The position numbers were made by a program, and so were the translations under genes. 20,436 bases of DNA from a virus. Shown here piece after piece: positions 14,086 to 19,572 of the stretch; the stretch's first letter is position 1, and every line of letters starts with the position of its first letter. The stretch spans positions 1 to 20,436 of the IMG/VR virus record IMGVR_UViG_3300046311_000109; one strand, given 5' to 3'. Below the pieces are notes generated by a model. The model was not told where the DNA came from. It saw only the letters and a list, made by a program, of their open reading frames with translations, and made no database searches.

Positions 14086-14573
14086 ATTATAAGTTCAAGA
14101 AAAAACCACGTGGTAGCCACTGCTCTAAGGGGCACGAGTTCACCGATGACAACACGTTCACTAGAGCCTATGACAACGCAAGAGTATGTCGCGAATGTCG
14201 CAAGCAATATGCACGAGAGAAGTATCAACGCAACAAGGATAAGAATGGTGGCATCGCACGTCTGAAGAAGGACAAGCAACCAATCTTTGAGATGCTTGAG
14301 TCTTCGGAGATTAGTAAAGAAGCGATGCCACACTGGACCAAGTTGCAACTAGGTCTACGTGACGTAACAACTCAGTGTTCCGGGAACCCGGAATACTACG
14401 CAGACAGGTCCATTGAAGTATCAGCCCTAGAAGCAGAGGTGATGTGTCACGGATGCCCACTAATCAAACCGTGTTACGACTACGCAGTTGCCGATAACAT
14501 CAGCGCAGGTATTTGGGGTGGGTTGCACTTCGATGAAGATGATGGTTCAATATTTAAGGAGGAGGATTTTTAA
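14079..14573 (+). CDS. Zinc-finger plus WhiB-like Fe-S regulator, non-canonical start
   Basis: The frame is open from 14064 and encodes, from 14079, about 164 residues. Residues 14-41 carry C15 with H14/H19 and C37-x2-C40 (SHCSKGHEFT and RVCRECRKQY), a zinc-finger pattern seen in phage proteins. The WhiB part has C100, C123-x2-C126-x5-C132 and the G-I-W-G-G motif, the normal 4Fe-4S ligand set. No ATG, GTG or TTG precedes the zinc part. An ATC at 14079 lies seven bases after GAGGGGG. The only ATG (14292) would give the WhiB part alone. A -1 slip from the overlapping frame at 14067-14073 would also reach it. WhiB proteins bind sigma factor A and regulate transcription. Confidence 0.75.
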   Translation: MVDYKFKKKPRGSHCSKGHEFTDDNTFTRAYDNARVCRECRKQYAREKYQRNKDKNGGIARLKKDKQPIFEMLESSEISKEAMPHWTKLQLGLRDVTTQCSGNPEYYADRSIEVSALEAEVMCHGCPLIKPCYDYAVADNISAGIWGGLHFDEDDGSIFKEEDF

Positions 14574-15280
14574 TGGCAGGATGGACAGCAAAAGCGGTCG
14601 AGGAAATGATGGTCAGCCTCTTCCTTCAAGAGTCGGACAGAGACAAGCAGCGCAAGGTCGGAGCATCTCAGATATCTGACCCCTGCACACGTCACTTGGC
14701 TCACGCCCTTGTGAGAACCGAAAGGCCAGCACAGAAGTACTGGCTTGGAGCAAAGATAGGAACCGCAATCCATGCTTTTATTGAGTCTGCTATTGATAAC
14801 TCTAGCGATACTCGCCTCGCTGGTGCTATTGTTGAACGCAAAATCGAACTCGGAGATGTTCCTGGCTATGGGTCTATCTCTAGTAGTCCAGACCTTGTTC
14901 TGGCTGGTAGTGGGCTTCTCGTAGACCACAAGAGTTCTACTCGTGCAAAGGTCAAGAAGGTTCGAGACCACGTAGACGGTATCAAACTTAGCCCCGAGAC
15001 CGAGTATACTCTTCAGAAGTACCTTGGTCAGATGAACCTTTATGCTTGGGGTCGCAACAAGAACCATGGCGACAACATTGACCAACTAGCAATCAACTTC
15101 GTCAATCGAGACGGCACCAATGAGAAGGACTTTTATTGTCTGCTTGTTGACTACGATGAAGAGTTTGCACTCGCACTATGGAATAGACTTCTTACTCTGT
15201 GGCAGGAACTAGAAGATGGCGCACATCCGGATAACTACCCAAGCCACCCGGAGTGCTACAACTGCAAGATGGGTGCATAA
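14573..15280 (+). CDS. PD-(D/E)XK nuclease, Cas4/RecB-like
   Basis: The 235-residue product has the exonuclease core: GASQISDPC (C38), GTAIHAFIE with H67, SSPDLVL with D107, LLVDHKSS with D118 and K120, and the Q-x-N-L-Y motif at Q153. Two more cysteines (C228-x2-C231, HPECYNCKMG) close the chain. With C38 they recall the Fe-S cluster of Cas4-type enzymes, although a fourth ligand is not obvious. It lies between two WhiB genes and just before the annealing ATPase. A role in end resection for recombination is likely. GGAGGA precedes the ATG. Confidence 0.88.
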   Translation: MAGWTAKAVEEMMVSLFLQESDRDKQRKVGASQISDPCTRHLAHALVRTERPAQKYWLGAKIGTAIHAFIESAIDNSSDTRLAGAIVERKIELGDVPGYGSISSSPDLVLAGSGLLVDHKSSTRAKVKKVRDHVDGIKLSPETEYTLQKYLGQMNLYAWGRNKNHGDNIDQLAINFVNRDGTNEKDFYCLLVDYDEEFALALWNRLLTLWQELEDGAHPDNYPSHPECYNCKMGA

Positions 15281-15543
15281 TGCACGCGGATGTAAGTTGG
15301 CAGGATAACGCTAAGTGCCTAGATGAAAAGCCGGAGTTGTTCTTTCCGGTTGGCGATTCAGACAAGGCGCTTAGGCAAACTAAAAGAGCACAATCAATTT
15401 GCAAAAGTTGCAAGGTTGCTGTAAGATGTCTAGAGTATTCAGTAAAAGAATCACTAGAGTTCGGCATCTATGGCGGATACACCGAAGACGAACGCAAAGC
15501 ACTGAAACGTAAGTACATTGAGACACGCCGAGAAACCAAATAA
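15280..15543 (+). CDS. whiB: WhiB-family Fe-S transcription regulator
   Basis: The ATG at 15280 shares a base with the nuclease stop (TAATG). The in-frame ATG at 15253 is rejected. The 87-residue product has the full WhiB layout: a first Cys in AKCLDEKPELFFP, then C-x2-C-x5-C in SICKSCKVAVRC, the turn GIYGGYTEDER and a basic tail (KALKRKYIETRRETK) that suits DNA binding. WhiB proteins carry a 4Fe-4S cluster and bind region 4 of the primary sigma factor. Phage versions can repress host whiB genes. The basic tail is absent from the other WhiB here. Confidence 0.92.
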   Translation: MHADVSWQDNAKCLDEKPELFFPVGDSDKALRQTKRAQSICKSCKVAVRCLEYSVKESLEFGIYGGYTEDERKALKRKYIETRRETK

Positions 15544-16830: not shown

Positions 16831-16848
16831 TACCTAAATGGGCAGTCC

Positions 16849-16873
16849 TGAGACATGACTTAAAACTGTCTCA
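16849..16873 (+). other. Hairpin after the ssDNA-binding gene
   Basis: TGAGACA (16849-16855) pairs perfectly with TGTCTCA (16867-16873) around an 11-base loop. Outer GGGC (16840-16843) can pair with GCCC (16877-16880), though that competes with the acceptor stem of the next RNA. No U tract follows, so it may be a processing or attenuation hairpin rather than a terminator. Confidence 0.4.
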
Positions 16874-16875
16874 CA

Positions 16876-16946
16876 AGCCCCTACTGGGTTCCGCGCTTCT
16901 CTCTCCTCCTTTGTGCGCGTGATGCAGTTCGATTCTGCAAGGGGCA
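16876..16946 (+). ncRNA. tRNA-sized RNA with acceptor/T-arm and an anti-Shine-Dalgarno loop
   Basis: Six acceptor pairs (16877-16882 with 16940-16945), a perfect T-arm (TGCAG, loop TTCGATT, CTGCA; 16923-16939) and a total of 71 bases match a tRNA. The middle does not: there is no D-arm and no seven-base anticodon loop. Instead CGCGC (16892-16896) pairs with GCGCG (16915-16919) around an 18-base pyrimidine-rich loop containing CCTCCTTT (16905-16912), the anti-Shine-Dalgarno core of 16S rRNA. It might be a degenerate tRNA or a tRNA-derived regulatory RNA. No amino-acid identity is proposed. Confidence 0.45.
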
Positions 16947-16951
16947 CGAAG

Positions 16952-16974
16952 CTTTATAGATGGCTTCTATAAAG
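16952..16974 (+). other. Perfect 9-bp hairpin
   Basis: CTTTATAGA (16952-16960) and TCTATAAAG (16966-16974) pair perfectly around TGGCT. It directly follows the tRNA-like RNA and precedes a larger structured segment. Function unknown. No U-run follows. Confidence 0.5.
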
Positions 16975-16977
16975 TCA

Positions 16978-17086
16978 GCCACCACTGCTGAAAAGTGGTC
17001 GGGATTTACGCCGTGATACTGTAGACGGGTTTCTGGTTGACGGTTATGAACCAGCAGTGGTAGGCTTTTGCCAAGGGTGCTACCAC
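16978..17086 (+). ncRNA. Structured RNA with competing long stems
   Basis: GCCACCACTGCTG (16978-16990) can pair with CAGCAGTGGT plus GGC (17052-17065) with one bulged base, a 13-bp stem enclosing about 60 bases. Alternatives compete with it: ACCACT (16981-16986) with AGTGGT (16994-16999), CTGGTT with AACCAG (within 17031-17055), and GTGGTAG (17057-17063) with CTACCAC (17080-17086). No protein frame with a ribosome binding site is present. The mutually exclusive pairings look like an attenuator or switch, or a processed RNA of the tRNA cluster. Inferred from pairing by eye. Confidence 0.4.
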
Positions 17087-17090
17087 ATCT

Positions 17091-17163
17091 TCCCTGCTAA
17101 CTCAGTTGGTAGAGTGTCCGGCTGTTAACCGGAATGTCGTTGGTTCGAGTCCAGCGCAGGGAG
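17091..17163 (+). tRNA. tRNA-Asn (anticodon GTT)
   Basis: All arms are present: acceptor TCCCTGC with GCAGGGA, D-arm CTC/GAG around AGTTGGTA, anticodon stem TCCGG/CCGGA with loop CTGTTAA (anticodon GTT), a five-base variable loop, T-stem GTTGG/CCAGC with loop TTCGAGT, and discriminator G. CCA is not encoded. Phage tRNAs commonly support translation where codon use differs from the host's or replace cleaved host tRNAs. Confidence 0.93.
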
Positions 17164-17166
17164 CAG

Positions 17167-17259
17167 AGACCACGGATAAGGCTCTGGTAATCCTTCGGGA
17201 TAGGCCACCCCCCGTTCAGGCAAGTGTGGCCACACTCCTGACGCTGTGACCACAGGTGG
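17167..17259 (+). other. Structured spacer between the tRNA genes
   Basis: The segment contains ATCC-TTCG-GGAT (17190-17201), a stable UUCG-type tetraloop. It also holds a nested hairpin: CCACC (17205-17209) with GGTGG (17255-17259), CAGG with CCTG (17217-17220, 17237-17240), and the 12-base palindrome GTGTGGCCACAC (17224-17235). No gene is seen. It could be a processed leader of the downstream tRNA or an independent RNA. Confidence 0.4.
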
Positions 17260-17275
17260 GTAAAGAATGTGGTAT

Positions 17276-17346
17276 GTTTCCTAAGTGTTACGGTAGCACG
17301 GCGGTCTCCAACACCGCAAGCCCAGGTTCGACTCCTGGAGGATTCG
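17276..17346 (+). tRNA. tRNA-Trp (anticodon CCA) with mismatched acceptor stem
   Basis: The D-arm (GTG/CAC), anticodon stem GCGGT/ACCGC with loop CTCCAAC (anticodon CCA) and T-arm CCAGG/CCTGG with loop TTCGACT are intact, and the discriminator is G. In the acceptor, GTTTCCT (17276-17282) faces AGGATTC (17339-17345), giving U-U at pairs 2-71 and 3-70. The gene may be decaying, or the real transcript may be repaired or bound differently. CCA is not encoded. It lies just ahead of the primase-helicase gene. Confidence 0.72.
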
Positions 17347-17376
17347 CGAGAGACAACTATTATTAGAGGAGGATAT

Positions 17377-19572
17377 ATGAAGACAGGTGATTTTCTACAA
17401 GCCGTCTACGGTGATGCCACCGGCATTGCAGCGTTCTCCATGCGTGGACAGTCTGGTGATTTGACTGACCAGAAGTTCTTTGAGTACCCTGCACAACTGG
17501 CAGACATGGAAGCATTGGCGATTACTAAGGCCAATGACGACCTATACTTTTCGCCAATCTTGTTTAACGCACCACGCCGTATCAAGGAGAACGCTAAGAC
17601 CGTTCACGTAATCTACGCAGATGCTGACGCTTGTGGCCCAGAGAACTTCCTTGTCGAGCCATCTATCTCAGTGCAGACTTCGGATGACCGTTGGCACACC
17701 TACTGGATGCTTGACTCAGAGGTAGACCCACAGGTTGCAGCATTGCTAGCCAAGAAGATTGCCTACGCACATGCCCACCAAGGCTGTGACACCTCTGGCT
17801 GGAACACTACCAAGCTTTTGCGTGTACCTAACACCATGAACATGAAGCCGGGCAAAGAGACTCCAGTGACCGCAACTAGCACTGGCGCAATCTACTCGCT
17901 TCAGGACTTGAACGACCACTACGGCGATGTAGAGGTTGAGCCAATCCGCGACCTGTCGCTTGCTGAATTGCCAGCACAGTGGCCAGCGCTAATGGACGTA
18001 ATGGCCAAGCTAAAGTCAACTCCAGAGATTATGTCTCTATACATGGACGAGCCTTCAGCGAGCGCAGACAGAAGCAAGTTGCTATGGAAACTTGAGAACC
18101 TGCTATTCCGTCAGGGCCTAACAGCCGAAGAGGTATTTGTAGTAGTTCGCAACGCTAAGTGCAACAAGTACCACAGTTCAAACCCAAAGCGCTCAGACCC
18201 AGATGGCGACCTATGGCGTGAAGTTCAGCGAGCAGGCTCTGCAACTGACGGTGGCGAAGAGTATACTCCAGTCGACACCTCTGACCTAGAGAAGCCGATT
18301 CAGATTGACCAGATTAAGCCATCATTCCTAACGGAATCAGAGCGCCTAACTGTGCAAGAGCACCGTAACTTCATTGATGATTATCGTGAATGGGCAACTA
18401 GCAAGACCGATGGTGCAATTGCGTATCAGAACGCATCTGCATGGACGCTGCTATCATGCGTGTTCTCGGACGTAGGCTATGCTGTACCGAAGTTCGGCAG
18501 AATGGGTCTGAACCTTTGGTTCATGGTGCTTGGTGAGACTACCCTAACTCGTAAGTCTACCTCTCGTAACCTCATGCTTCGTGCAGTTCGCATGTACGAG
18601 AAGTTCTCTGGCTACCAGATTGATATCGGTTCGGATGCGACACCAGAAGGTCTGACTTCGATTCTTGCAGAGCGAGACGGACAGACATCTTTGCTACACC
18701 GAGATGAAGTCCAGGGTATGTTCAAGGACTTTATCAACAAGACCTATATGGCATCTGCAGCAGAGCGATTCACCGAACTTTACGATGGCCACGTACCTGT
18801 GACCATTCGTTCCAGCAAGGGCAAGACTCAGACCGAGCGAGCAACTACCAACTTCGTGATGTACCTAATGGGTATCACTAGCAAGACTGCAGACGTTCTA
18901 ACCACCGAGTACTTCCGCTCTGGATTCTTGGCACGATTCATTTACGTAACTGCTCCAACTCCACCACGTACACGCGAGTCTGAGGATATTCAGCAGGCAG
19001 ACGAATACGAGACTGTAGTTCGTGACGAAGTTCTTGAGTCTATGATGAAGCGTCTATCTGATAGCGTTATGTTCTGGCAGAAGAAGAGCAGTAGCAAGCC
19101 AGTTCCAGTTCGCATGAGCCAGCCTGCACTTGAGCGATTCAACCAGTACAAGTGGGAGATGGGCAACTTTGCCGAGAACCACCCAGAGCGTGAATCTATT
19201 GAGCCATCTCGCCAGCGTCTAGCACTCTCCGTGTGGAAGTGTGCCGTGTTGCTTGCTATGGTAGAAAAGTCAGAAGAGGTAAAGACCCGTCACCTGCTAA
19301 CTGCAATCATGTATTCAGAGGAATGGTTTTGGAACTTGACCCAGATGGCTGGAGCAATCTCTGCCTCAGAGTGGCAGCGAGATGTTGACCGTCTGGAGAC
19401 TCTAATCATGGACAAGGGTGGACGAATCCGCTACGAGGACGCTTACAAGAAGTTCAACAACAAGCGTAAGCGAGAGTTCGATGAGATGATTCAGGCTCTT
19501 CACTCGCAGGCTAGAGCGCAGATAGTAATTGAAGAACGTAAGACATACTTGGAGGTGATTGTGAATGGATAG
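17377..19572 (+). CDS. Primase-helicase, AEP/RepB-like primase fused to a DUF3987-type ATPase
   Basis: The start is the ATG at 17377 after AGGAGG. An upstream in-frame GTG would run through the tRNA. The 731-residue product has an archaeo-eukaryotic-type primase half: YADADA at 80-85 (metal site), PSISVQTSDDRWHTYW at about 95-110, and LLRVPNTMNMKPG at 147-159. It is followed by a RecA-like ATPase half with GETTLTRKSTS at 386-396 and LLHRDEV at 439-445 (Walker B). The Walker A lacks the usual Gly before Lys. This would prime and unwind at the phage fork, and is the likely central replication enzyme here. Confidence 0.85.
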   Translation: MKTGDFLQAVYGDATGIAAFSMRGQSGDLTDQKFFEYPAQLADMEALAITKANDDLYFSPILFNAPRRIKENAKTVHVIYADADACGPENFLVEPSISVQTSDDRWHTYWMLDSEVDPQVAALLAKKIAYAHAHQGCDTSGWNTTKLLRVPNTMNMKPGKETPVTATSTGAIYSLQDLNDHYGDVEVEPIRDLSLAELPAQWPALMDVMAKLKSTPEIMSLYMDEPSASADRSKLLWKLENLLFRQGLTAEEVFVVVRNAKCNKYHSSNPKRSDPDGDLWREVQRAGSATDGGEEYTPVDTSDLEKPIQIDQIKPSFLTESERLTVQEHRNFIDDYREWATSKTDGAIAYQNASAWTLLSCVFSDVGYAVPKFGRMGLNLWFMVLGETTLTRKSTSRNLMLRAVRMYEKFSGYQIDIGSDATPEGLTSILAERDGQTSLLHRDEVQGMFKDFINKTYMASAAERFTELYDGHVPVTIRSSKGKTQTERATTNFVMYLMGITSKTADVLTTEYFRSGFLARFIYVTAPTPPRTRESEDIQQADEYETVVRDEVLESMMKRLSDSVMFWQKKSSSKPVPVRMSQPALERFNQYKWEMGNFAENHPERESIEPSRQRLALSVWKCAVLLAMVEKSEEVKTRHLLTAIMYSEEWFWNLTQMAGAISASEWQRDVDRLETLIMDKGGRIRYEDAYKKFNNKRKREFDEMIQALHSQARAQIVIEERKTYLEVIVNG

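Follow-up and report, generated by a model that had tools for sequence, protein, structure and literature searches.

Gene context of the element

The stretch of DNA analysed here (the window; 20,436 nucleotides) is a 20.4-kb virus fragment. It carries WhiB-like genes, a terminase, a helicase, a Cas4-type exonuclease, a Sak4-like ATPase, a DUF669 (SSB-like) gene and a DNA primase gene. The cultured-phage relatives of the primase are mostly actinobacterial phages, with identities of ∼37% or less. The two WhiB-like regulator genes (14292–14573 and 15253–15543) point to an actinobacterial host. In Arthrobacter phage Molivia, the gene located at the same place as the DUF669 gene is annotated as a single strand DNA binding protein. 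We found no plasmid bearing this upstream gene, no DNA similarity of the element described below to cultured phages, and no promoter- or terminator-like site in the window stretch examined.

Between the SSB-like gene and the primase gene we observed a pseudoknot followed by a tRNA-like element (Table 1). A sequence-only reading of the window had described the acceptor pairs, the perfect T-arm and the stem carrying an 18-base loop with an anti-Shine-Dalgarno (anti-SD) motif, and on rereading we agreed with it within one base. That reading had missed the pseudoknot and the place of the element in the primase leader.

Table 1. Features of the window around the tRNA-like element
Feature	Position	Strand	Basis or remark
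DUF669 family gene, single-strand-binding-protein-like, 157 aa	16357–16830	+	Pfam DUF669, E 1.3e-5
H-type pseudoknot AGTC-CT-GAGACA-T-GACT-TAAAAC-TGTCTC	16844–16872	+	homologue comparison
Pseudoknot S1, AGTC/GACT	16844–16847/16857–16860	+	
Pseudoknot L1, CT	16848–16849	+	
Pseudoknot S2, GAGACA/TGTCTC	16850–16855/16867–16872	+	
Pseudoknot linker, T (1 nt)	16856	+	
Pseudoknot L3, TAAAAC (A-rich)	16861–16866	+	
Spacer between pseudoknot and tRNA-like part, 4 nt	16873–16876	+	
tRNA-like element, acceptor to discriminator A	16877–16946	+	read directly and homologue comparison
Acceptor stem, GCCCCT/AGGGGC, 6 bp	16877–16882/16940–16945	+	direct reading
Stemless D-loop remnant, CTGG	16884–16887	+	TGG kept in 45/54 homologues
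Long arm	16892–16919	+	direct reading and stem covariation
Long-arm stem, CGCGC/GCGCG	16892–16896/16915–16919	+	direct reading and stem covariation
CU loop, 18 nt, TTCTCTCTCCTCCTTTGT	16897–16914	+	direct reading
Anti-SD motif, CCTCCTTT	16905–16912	+	direct reading; CTCCT in 50/54 loops
T-arm, TGCAG-TTCGATT-CTGCA	16923–16939	+	perfect; direct reading and homologues
Discriminator A	16946	+	direct reading
tRNA-Asn(GTT), between element and primase	17091–17164	+	ARAGORN, Rfam
tRNA-Trp(CCA), between element and primase	17276–17347	+	ARAGORN, Rfam
Primase Shine-Dalgarno (SD) region, GAGGAGGA	17366–17373	+	direct reading; loop partner in minimum free energy structure
DNA primase, proposed regulated gene	17377–19572	+	PHROG 10514 DNA primase, E 4e-159

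The element has an acceptor stem, a T-arm with a TTCGANT loop and the GG of a D-loop, as tRNAs have. It lacks a recognised cloverleaf and a D-stem, and has an 18-nt loop instead of the 7-nt anticodon loop. From what is known of tRNA and tmRNA, the D-loop remnant is expected to contact the T-loop. ARAGORN and Rfam called only the two tRNAs of Table 1 in the window and missed the element, and ARAGORN gave no call for it in 11 homologous loci. Rfam had no plausible match for the tRNA-like element or the pseudoknot, and no curated family was found there. A normal tRNA fold, for which the sequence-only reading had advised a search with such programs, was thus not found.

The folding energy of the single window sequence was modestly better than that of its shuffles (z = −2.4), and its minimum free energy (MFE) structure did not contain the T-arm as drawn. 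The window sequence alone would therefore not settle the fold; the comparison of homologues does.

Conservation of the tRNA-like fold and its loop

A search with the SSB-like protein gave 11 loci, each having the element in the same position, and a DNA pattern search gave further loci. The search with the primase protein gave 80 loci, nearly all of which have the element 5′ of the primase gene. The comparison set consisted of 75 phage loci found mainly via the downstream primase. Parsing them yielded 54 unique elements, each made up of a pseudoknot and a tRNA-like part; in six loci the parser chose a true tRNA or failed, and these were treated by hand. Nearly all of the 75 primase loci have the element between the SSB-like gene and the primase gene. 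Helix statistics were counted on the parsed structures and not with a covariance model; the MAFFT alignment of distant members was poor.

The same architecture is kept in the 54 unique homologues. We observed 2–6 standard pair types per position in the T-stem, the long arm and the outer acceptor, the first T-stem pair being invariant. Since the parser selects canonical pairs only, the evidence lies in this variety of pair types and in the shuffle controls. The long-arm stem of the window is replaced elsewhere by ATACGC/GCGTAT, GTACGC/GCGTAC, CACGC/GCGTG or TATCACAG/CTGTGATA, and a long arm of at least five Watson–Crick pairs was present in 45 of the 54 elements, compared to 3.6% of shuffled central regions. 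CTCCT was found in 50/54 loops, where 10 were expected from shuffled loops, while the loop length ranged from 8 to 39 nt. The 3′ end reads AC in 51/54 elements; seven of the 54 encode ACCA, and the others have no more than AC or GC.

The sequence-only reading had proposed that homologues be checked for loss of the stem or of the loop motif; both are kept, with compensatory changes, and its tRNA-like RNA having an anti-SD loop in place of an anticodon is real. The conserved layout, the compensatory helices and the kept loop motif indicate a selected tRNA-like RNA. We found no description of such an element in the open-access literature. Judged from these sequence comparisons, it is a new conserved RNA family.

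Some loci deviate from this layout. Two tandem tRNA-like elements are present 5′ of the primase in L105, L107 and L115, the first with a pseudoknot and a short arm, the second without a pseudoknot and with the anti-SD loop. In L147 and L148, the tRNA-like element has lost its large loop; 12 nt separate it from the primase start, whose SD is strong. Matches to CTCTCC(N)TCCTTTGTGCG in the genome collection (50 contigs) were attributed to chance, as none had a tRNA-like context.

A conserved pseudoknot precedes the tRNA-like part

The pseudoknot lies ∼4 nt 5′ of the acceptor in nearly all members. Its strict form was observed in 42 of the 54 unique homologues, compared to 0.08% of shuffled upstream stretches, and both S1 and S2 show compensatory changes. 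Other versions are CGAG-GG-GTGCG-T-CTCG-TAAACAA-CGCAC and CAGG-CT-GGCA-T-CCTG-TATAATCAC-TGCC. The same pseudoknot is present in cultured Arthrobacter phages, with compensatory changes in stem 1 (AGAC/GTCT in Amavida and Thunderclap; CGTC/GACG in Molivia). There it lies 4 nt before genes annotated as tRNA-Gly(ccc) or tRNA-OTHER, in the slot between an SSB or hypothetical gene and the primase gene. This arrangement suggests that a tRNA once occupied that slot and was the source of the tRNA-like part or was replaced by it.

A role of the pseudoknot in readthrough or frameshifting at the upstream stop codon was dropped, as the pseudoknot lies at variable distances from the stop and no slippery site is present. 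The homologues do not retain a short ORF (ATGGGCAGTCCTGAGACATGA) that lies within the pseudoknot.

We also observed a second class of 28-nt H-type pseudoknots (S1-GG-GTGCG-A/T-S1′-L3-CGCAC) before ORFs of viral contigs, in at least 59 distinct forms (L164–L282, e.g. L167:79–101 and L182:1440–1465). Most have no tRNA-like part (a T-loop follows in 2/59), and the median distance to the next ATG is 24.5 nt. Stem 1 covaries, and the class is not in Rfam. This pseudoknot is widespread in phage mRNA leaders and recalls the operator of T4 gene 32.

The loop is matched to the leader of its own primase gene

The element ends 12–50 nt before the primase start in 33/75 loci. A terminator and a promoter of the primase's own would not fit into this space, and the element is therefore part of the primase leader. 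In 31/75 loci, the window included, more than 130 nt, usually with tRNA genes, lie between the loop and the primase.

We compared the pairing of each loop with its own and with swapped leaders. In the near loci, the duplex energy was −15.2 kcal/mol with the own leader and −12.8 kcal/mol with swapped leaders. When one locus per primase cluster was taken and the main effects of loop and leader were removed, the p values of the own-versus-swapped difference, approximate because the loci are related, were 5e-5 (24 clusters at 85% primase identity), 4e-4 (12 clusters at 75%) and 0.011 (8 clusters at 70%). The longest Watson–Crick run was also longer with the own leader (7.75 versus 6.82; p = 1e-4). 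In 21 of the 24 clusters, the leader pairs more strongly with its loop than with the 16S tail.

Individual loci illustrate this match. In L120 and L129, CTTCTTCTCC pairs with GGAGAAGAAG, and the match extends past the 16S-like core; similar extended matches occur in L137 and L100, the L100 loop fitting two leader segments. In L119, whose leader has no AGGAG, CCCTTTCTC pairs with GAGAAAGGG. The energies with the own leader and with the 16S tail were −17.3 versus −9.2 kcal/mol for L119 and −19.6 versus −9.3 kcal/mol for L120. A further match was seen by eye in L289 (loop TTTTCACTCCTTTGT, leader ACAAGGAGATGAAA). To judge from these sequences, the loop can match the leader where the latter departs from AGGAG.

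Among the SD-bearing starts of its own locus, the primase leader ranked first in 9/25 cases (2.7 expected); this ranking is contaminated, as some of the competitors come from the element's own antisense strand. The primase start of the window ranks 3 of 25, and the loop there pairs equally well with other starts.

Two mutually exclusive folds are predicted

Folded alone, the tRNA-like part formed the acceptor in 24/24 near loci (MFE). When the leader was included, pairing of the loop with the leader and a broken acceptor were predicted in 20/24, against 11.8 expected with dinucleotide-shuffled leaders; part of this signal is composition, since a CU-rich loop pairs with nearly any AG-rich leader, and the MFE model leaves out pseudoknots and protein binding. 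Exclusive folds were also predicted in most of the far loci tried. For L129, the free energy was −37.5 kcal/mol without constraint, against −21.0 kcal/mol when the tRNA-like fold was imposed; for L120, the values were −34.7 and −17.8 kcal/mol, respectively. The T-arm hairpin persists in both states of these two loci.

In the MFE structure of window positions 16877–17396, the loop pairs with the SD (17367–17373) and the start (17379–17381), the expected number of loop–SD pairs being 7.2; the partners are here 431 nt apart, with two tRNAs between them. The leader segment that pairs begins 2–8 nt after the acceptor in some near loci. From the dimensions of tRNA we infer that, at this spacing, the loop–SD pairing and the intact L-shaped RNA would be alternatives in one molecule. 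As in leader switches that sequester an SD, two mutually exclusive folds are thus predicted, one of them on the gene's own SD.

A proposed switch in the primase leader and its alternatives

The most likely reading, to which we give about an even chance, is that the element, as part of the primase leader, switches translation by changing between these two folds. It is favoured by the slot before the primase, the match between loop and leader, the outpairing of the 16S tail, the exclusivity of the MFE folds and the pairing in the window. A cis switch fits less well at the loci, including the window, where >130 nt and usually tRNA genes intervene, and L147, which is almost without a loop, counts against it.

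In the first fold, the 5′ pseudoknot and the tRNA-like fold would be formed with the anti-SD in the long-arm loop, and the primase SD would be free. In the second, the anti-SD loop would lie on the primase SD (up to 14 pairs), the acceptor and the long arm would be broken, the T-arm hairpin alone would survive and the ribosome site would be hidden. As the tRNA-like part is transcribed first, the first fold would form first and would be metastable. It may be kept by RNase P/RNase Z excision, by a tRNA-binding protein or by fast ribosome loading; were RNase P/Z to cut out the tRNA-like part, the ON state would be locked in. The conservation of the tRNA-like fold, the pseudoknot and the anti-SD, the loop–leader match and the predicted exclusivity of the folds were computed. 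That the switch works in living cells, what sets it off and which way it runs over time are inferred.

We also raise, tentatively, a tRNA-fold-gated form of the switch, where translation of the primase would depend on the tRNA machinery recognising or cutting the leader and the pseudoknot would provide a second input via the SSB protein. RNase P, RNase Z, the CCA-adding enzyme, EF-Tu or a phage protein might conceivably be this machinery.

The chief rival is a trans-acting small RNA: RNase P and RNase Z would release the tRNA-like part, its CCA being added or encoded, and the stable product would repress the primase mRNA, its main target, by pairing with the SD, and perhaps other phage or host mRNAs likewise. 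The T-arm, the elbow contact, the acceptor and the 3′ AC or ACCA are kept as in a substrate of RNase P/Z, and the element persists where tRNAs separate it from the primase. An annotated tRNA-Gly or tRNA-OTHER follows the same pseudoknot in the same slot of cultured Arthrobacter phages. The near-locus leader segment 2–8 nt past the acceptor is too close for the loop of the same L-shaped molecule; however, an exclusive cis switch explains this geometry equally. Moreover, a regulator of many mRNAs needs only a generic anti-SD, whereas the loop follows the neighbouring leader. We consider a trans-acting RNA rather unlikely. A role as tRNA punctuation, that is, a processing or stability element parting the SSB and primase mRNAs with the loop as an unstructured linker, is improbable. 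The conserved pseudoknot and tRNA-like fold at a two-gene junction, in a slot of tRNA arrays, and the real tRNA in the same slot of the Arthrobacter phages are what it would predict, but the excess of CTCCT in the loops and the loop–leader match would be left unexplained.

Another alternative is that the loop imitates the 16S 3′ end in a general way and serves as a decoy titrating host or phage ribosome-binding sites. The sequence-only reading had proposed such a decoy, or pairing with host ribosome-binding sites, from the motif CCTCCTTT, which we take to be identical to the usual 16S 3′ end, and other starts of the window do pair as well as that of the primase. This proposal was not supported and is very unlikely, as the length and sequence of the loop vary with the primase leader and do not track the 16S end, the L119 and L120 loops fitting their leaders far better. 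The simpler alternative it had offered, a decayed tRNA with a chance anti-SD loop, would agree with the missing D-stem and anticodon and with the lack of an ARAGORN or Rfam call. Conservation of compensatory helices and of the loop motif in 54 unique homologues refutes it, and we regard it as extremely unlikely.

Comparison with known systems

The tRNA-like domain of tmRNA has an acceptor and a T-arm, a stemless D-loop and a long second arm. The element shares all of these, and differs in having no tag reading frame in its 69 nt, C3–G70 in the window instead of G3–U70, and no ARAGORN tmRNA call. RsaE/RoxS and csRNA are SD-binding CU-rich small RNAs of Gram-positive bacteria, independent hairpins that act in trans. 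They have a similar CU-rich loop complementary to SD sites, whereas here the loop is borne on a tRNA-like scaffold directly 5′ of the matched gene.

In the pre-primase slot of Stenotrophomonas phage Jojan60 (L161:2850–2990), the short RNA gene-like stretch GGGGCATGATGGTTTCGACGG...GGACCTGGGTTCGATTCCCAGATGCTCCACCA resembles tmRNA in its tRNA-like domain but has no tag frame. Unannotated stretches with a T-arm and acceptor-like ends lie immediately 5′ of the primase in Curtobacterium phage Yappy (L163, ∼2780–2880) and Clavibacter phage CN1A (L162, ∼2880–2990), and are possibly further tRNA-like leaders.

In the leader of the MS2 maturation gene, a stable fold hides the ribosome site and a transient structure delays it (PMC6582335), a kinetic control of folding described by Poot et al. 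(1997), as cited in PMC6071253. The switch logic is alike, and the transcription order and energies of our element fit a metastable delay, the kinetic step itself being a proposal. MS2 is an RNA phage whose leader has neither a tRNA-like fold with a T-arm nor an anti-SD loop, whereas here DNA phages and a primase gene are concerned. The translational operator of T4/RB69 gene 32 is a leader pseudoknot of ∼28 nt bound by the SSB protein (PMC535899). Our H-type pseudoknot is of similar size, 5′ of an SD in a replication operon and right behind an SSB-like gene; T4 has no tRNA-like part, and with the likeness lying in size and place, SSB binding is here a candidate function. The Escherichia coli thrS leader contains a tRNA-like operator bound by threonyl-tRNA synthetase (PMC5723415), and is likewise a case of tRNA mimicry in a translation-controlling leader. 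It mimics the anticodon arm, whereas our element retains the acceptor/T-arm half and has an anti-SD in place of the anticodon arm. In none of these three systems does a tRNA-like fold bear an anti-SD loop that suits the following gene.

Implications for phage biology

The leader of a DNA phage replication gene would contain a tRNA mimic, its anticodon loop swapped for an anti-SD fitted to the neighbouring gene. Such a mimic links tRNA mimicry, phage tRNA arrays and the translational timing of replication. The findings suggest that regulatory RNAs may lie behind some of the 'tRNA-OTHER' or odd tRNA annotations of actinophages. Laboratory phages offer a test, as Arthrobacter phages have the same pseudoknot before a tRNA-like gene and the primase gene. 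If the gated form of the switch is true, the phage would read the tRNA-processing state of the cell to time its DNA replication.
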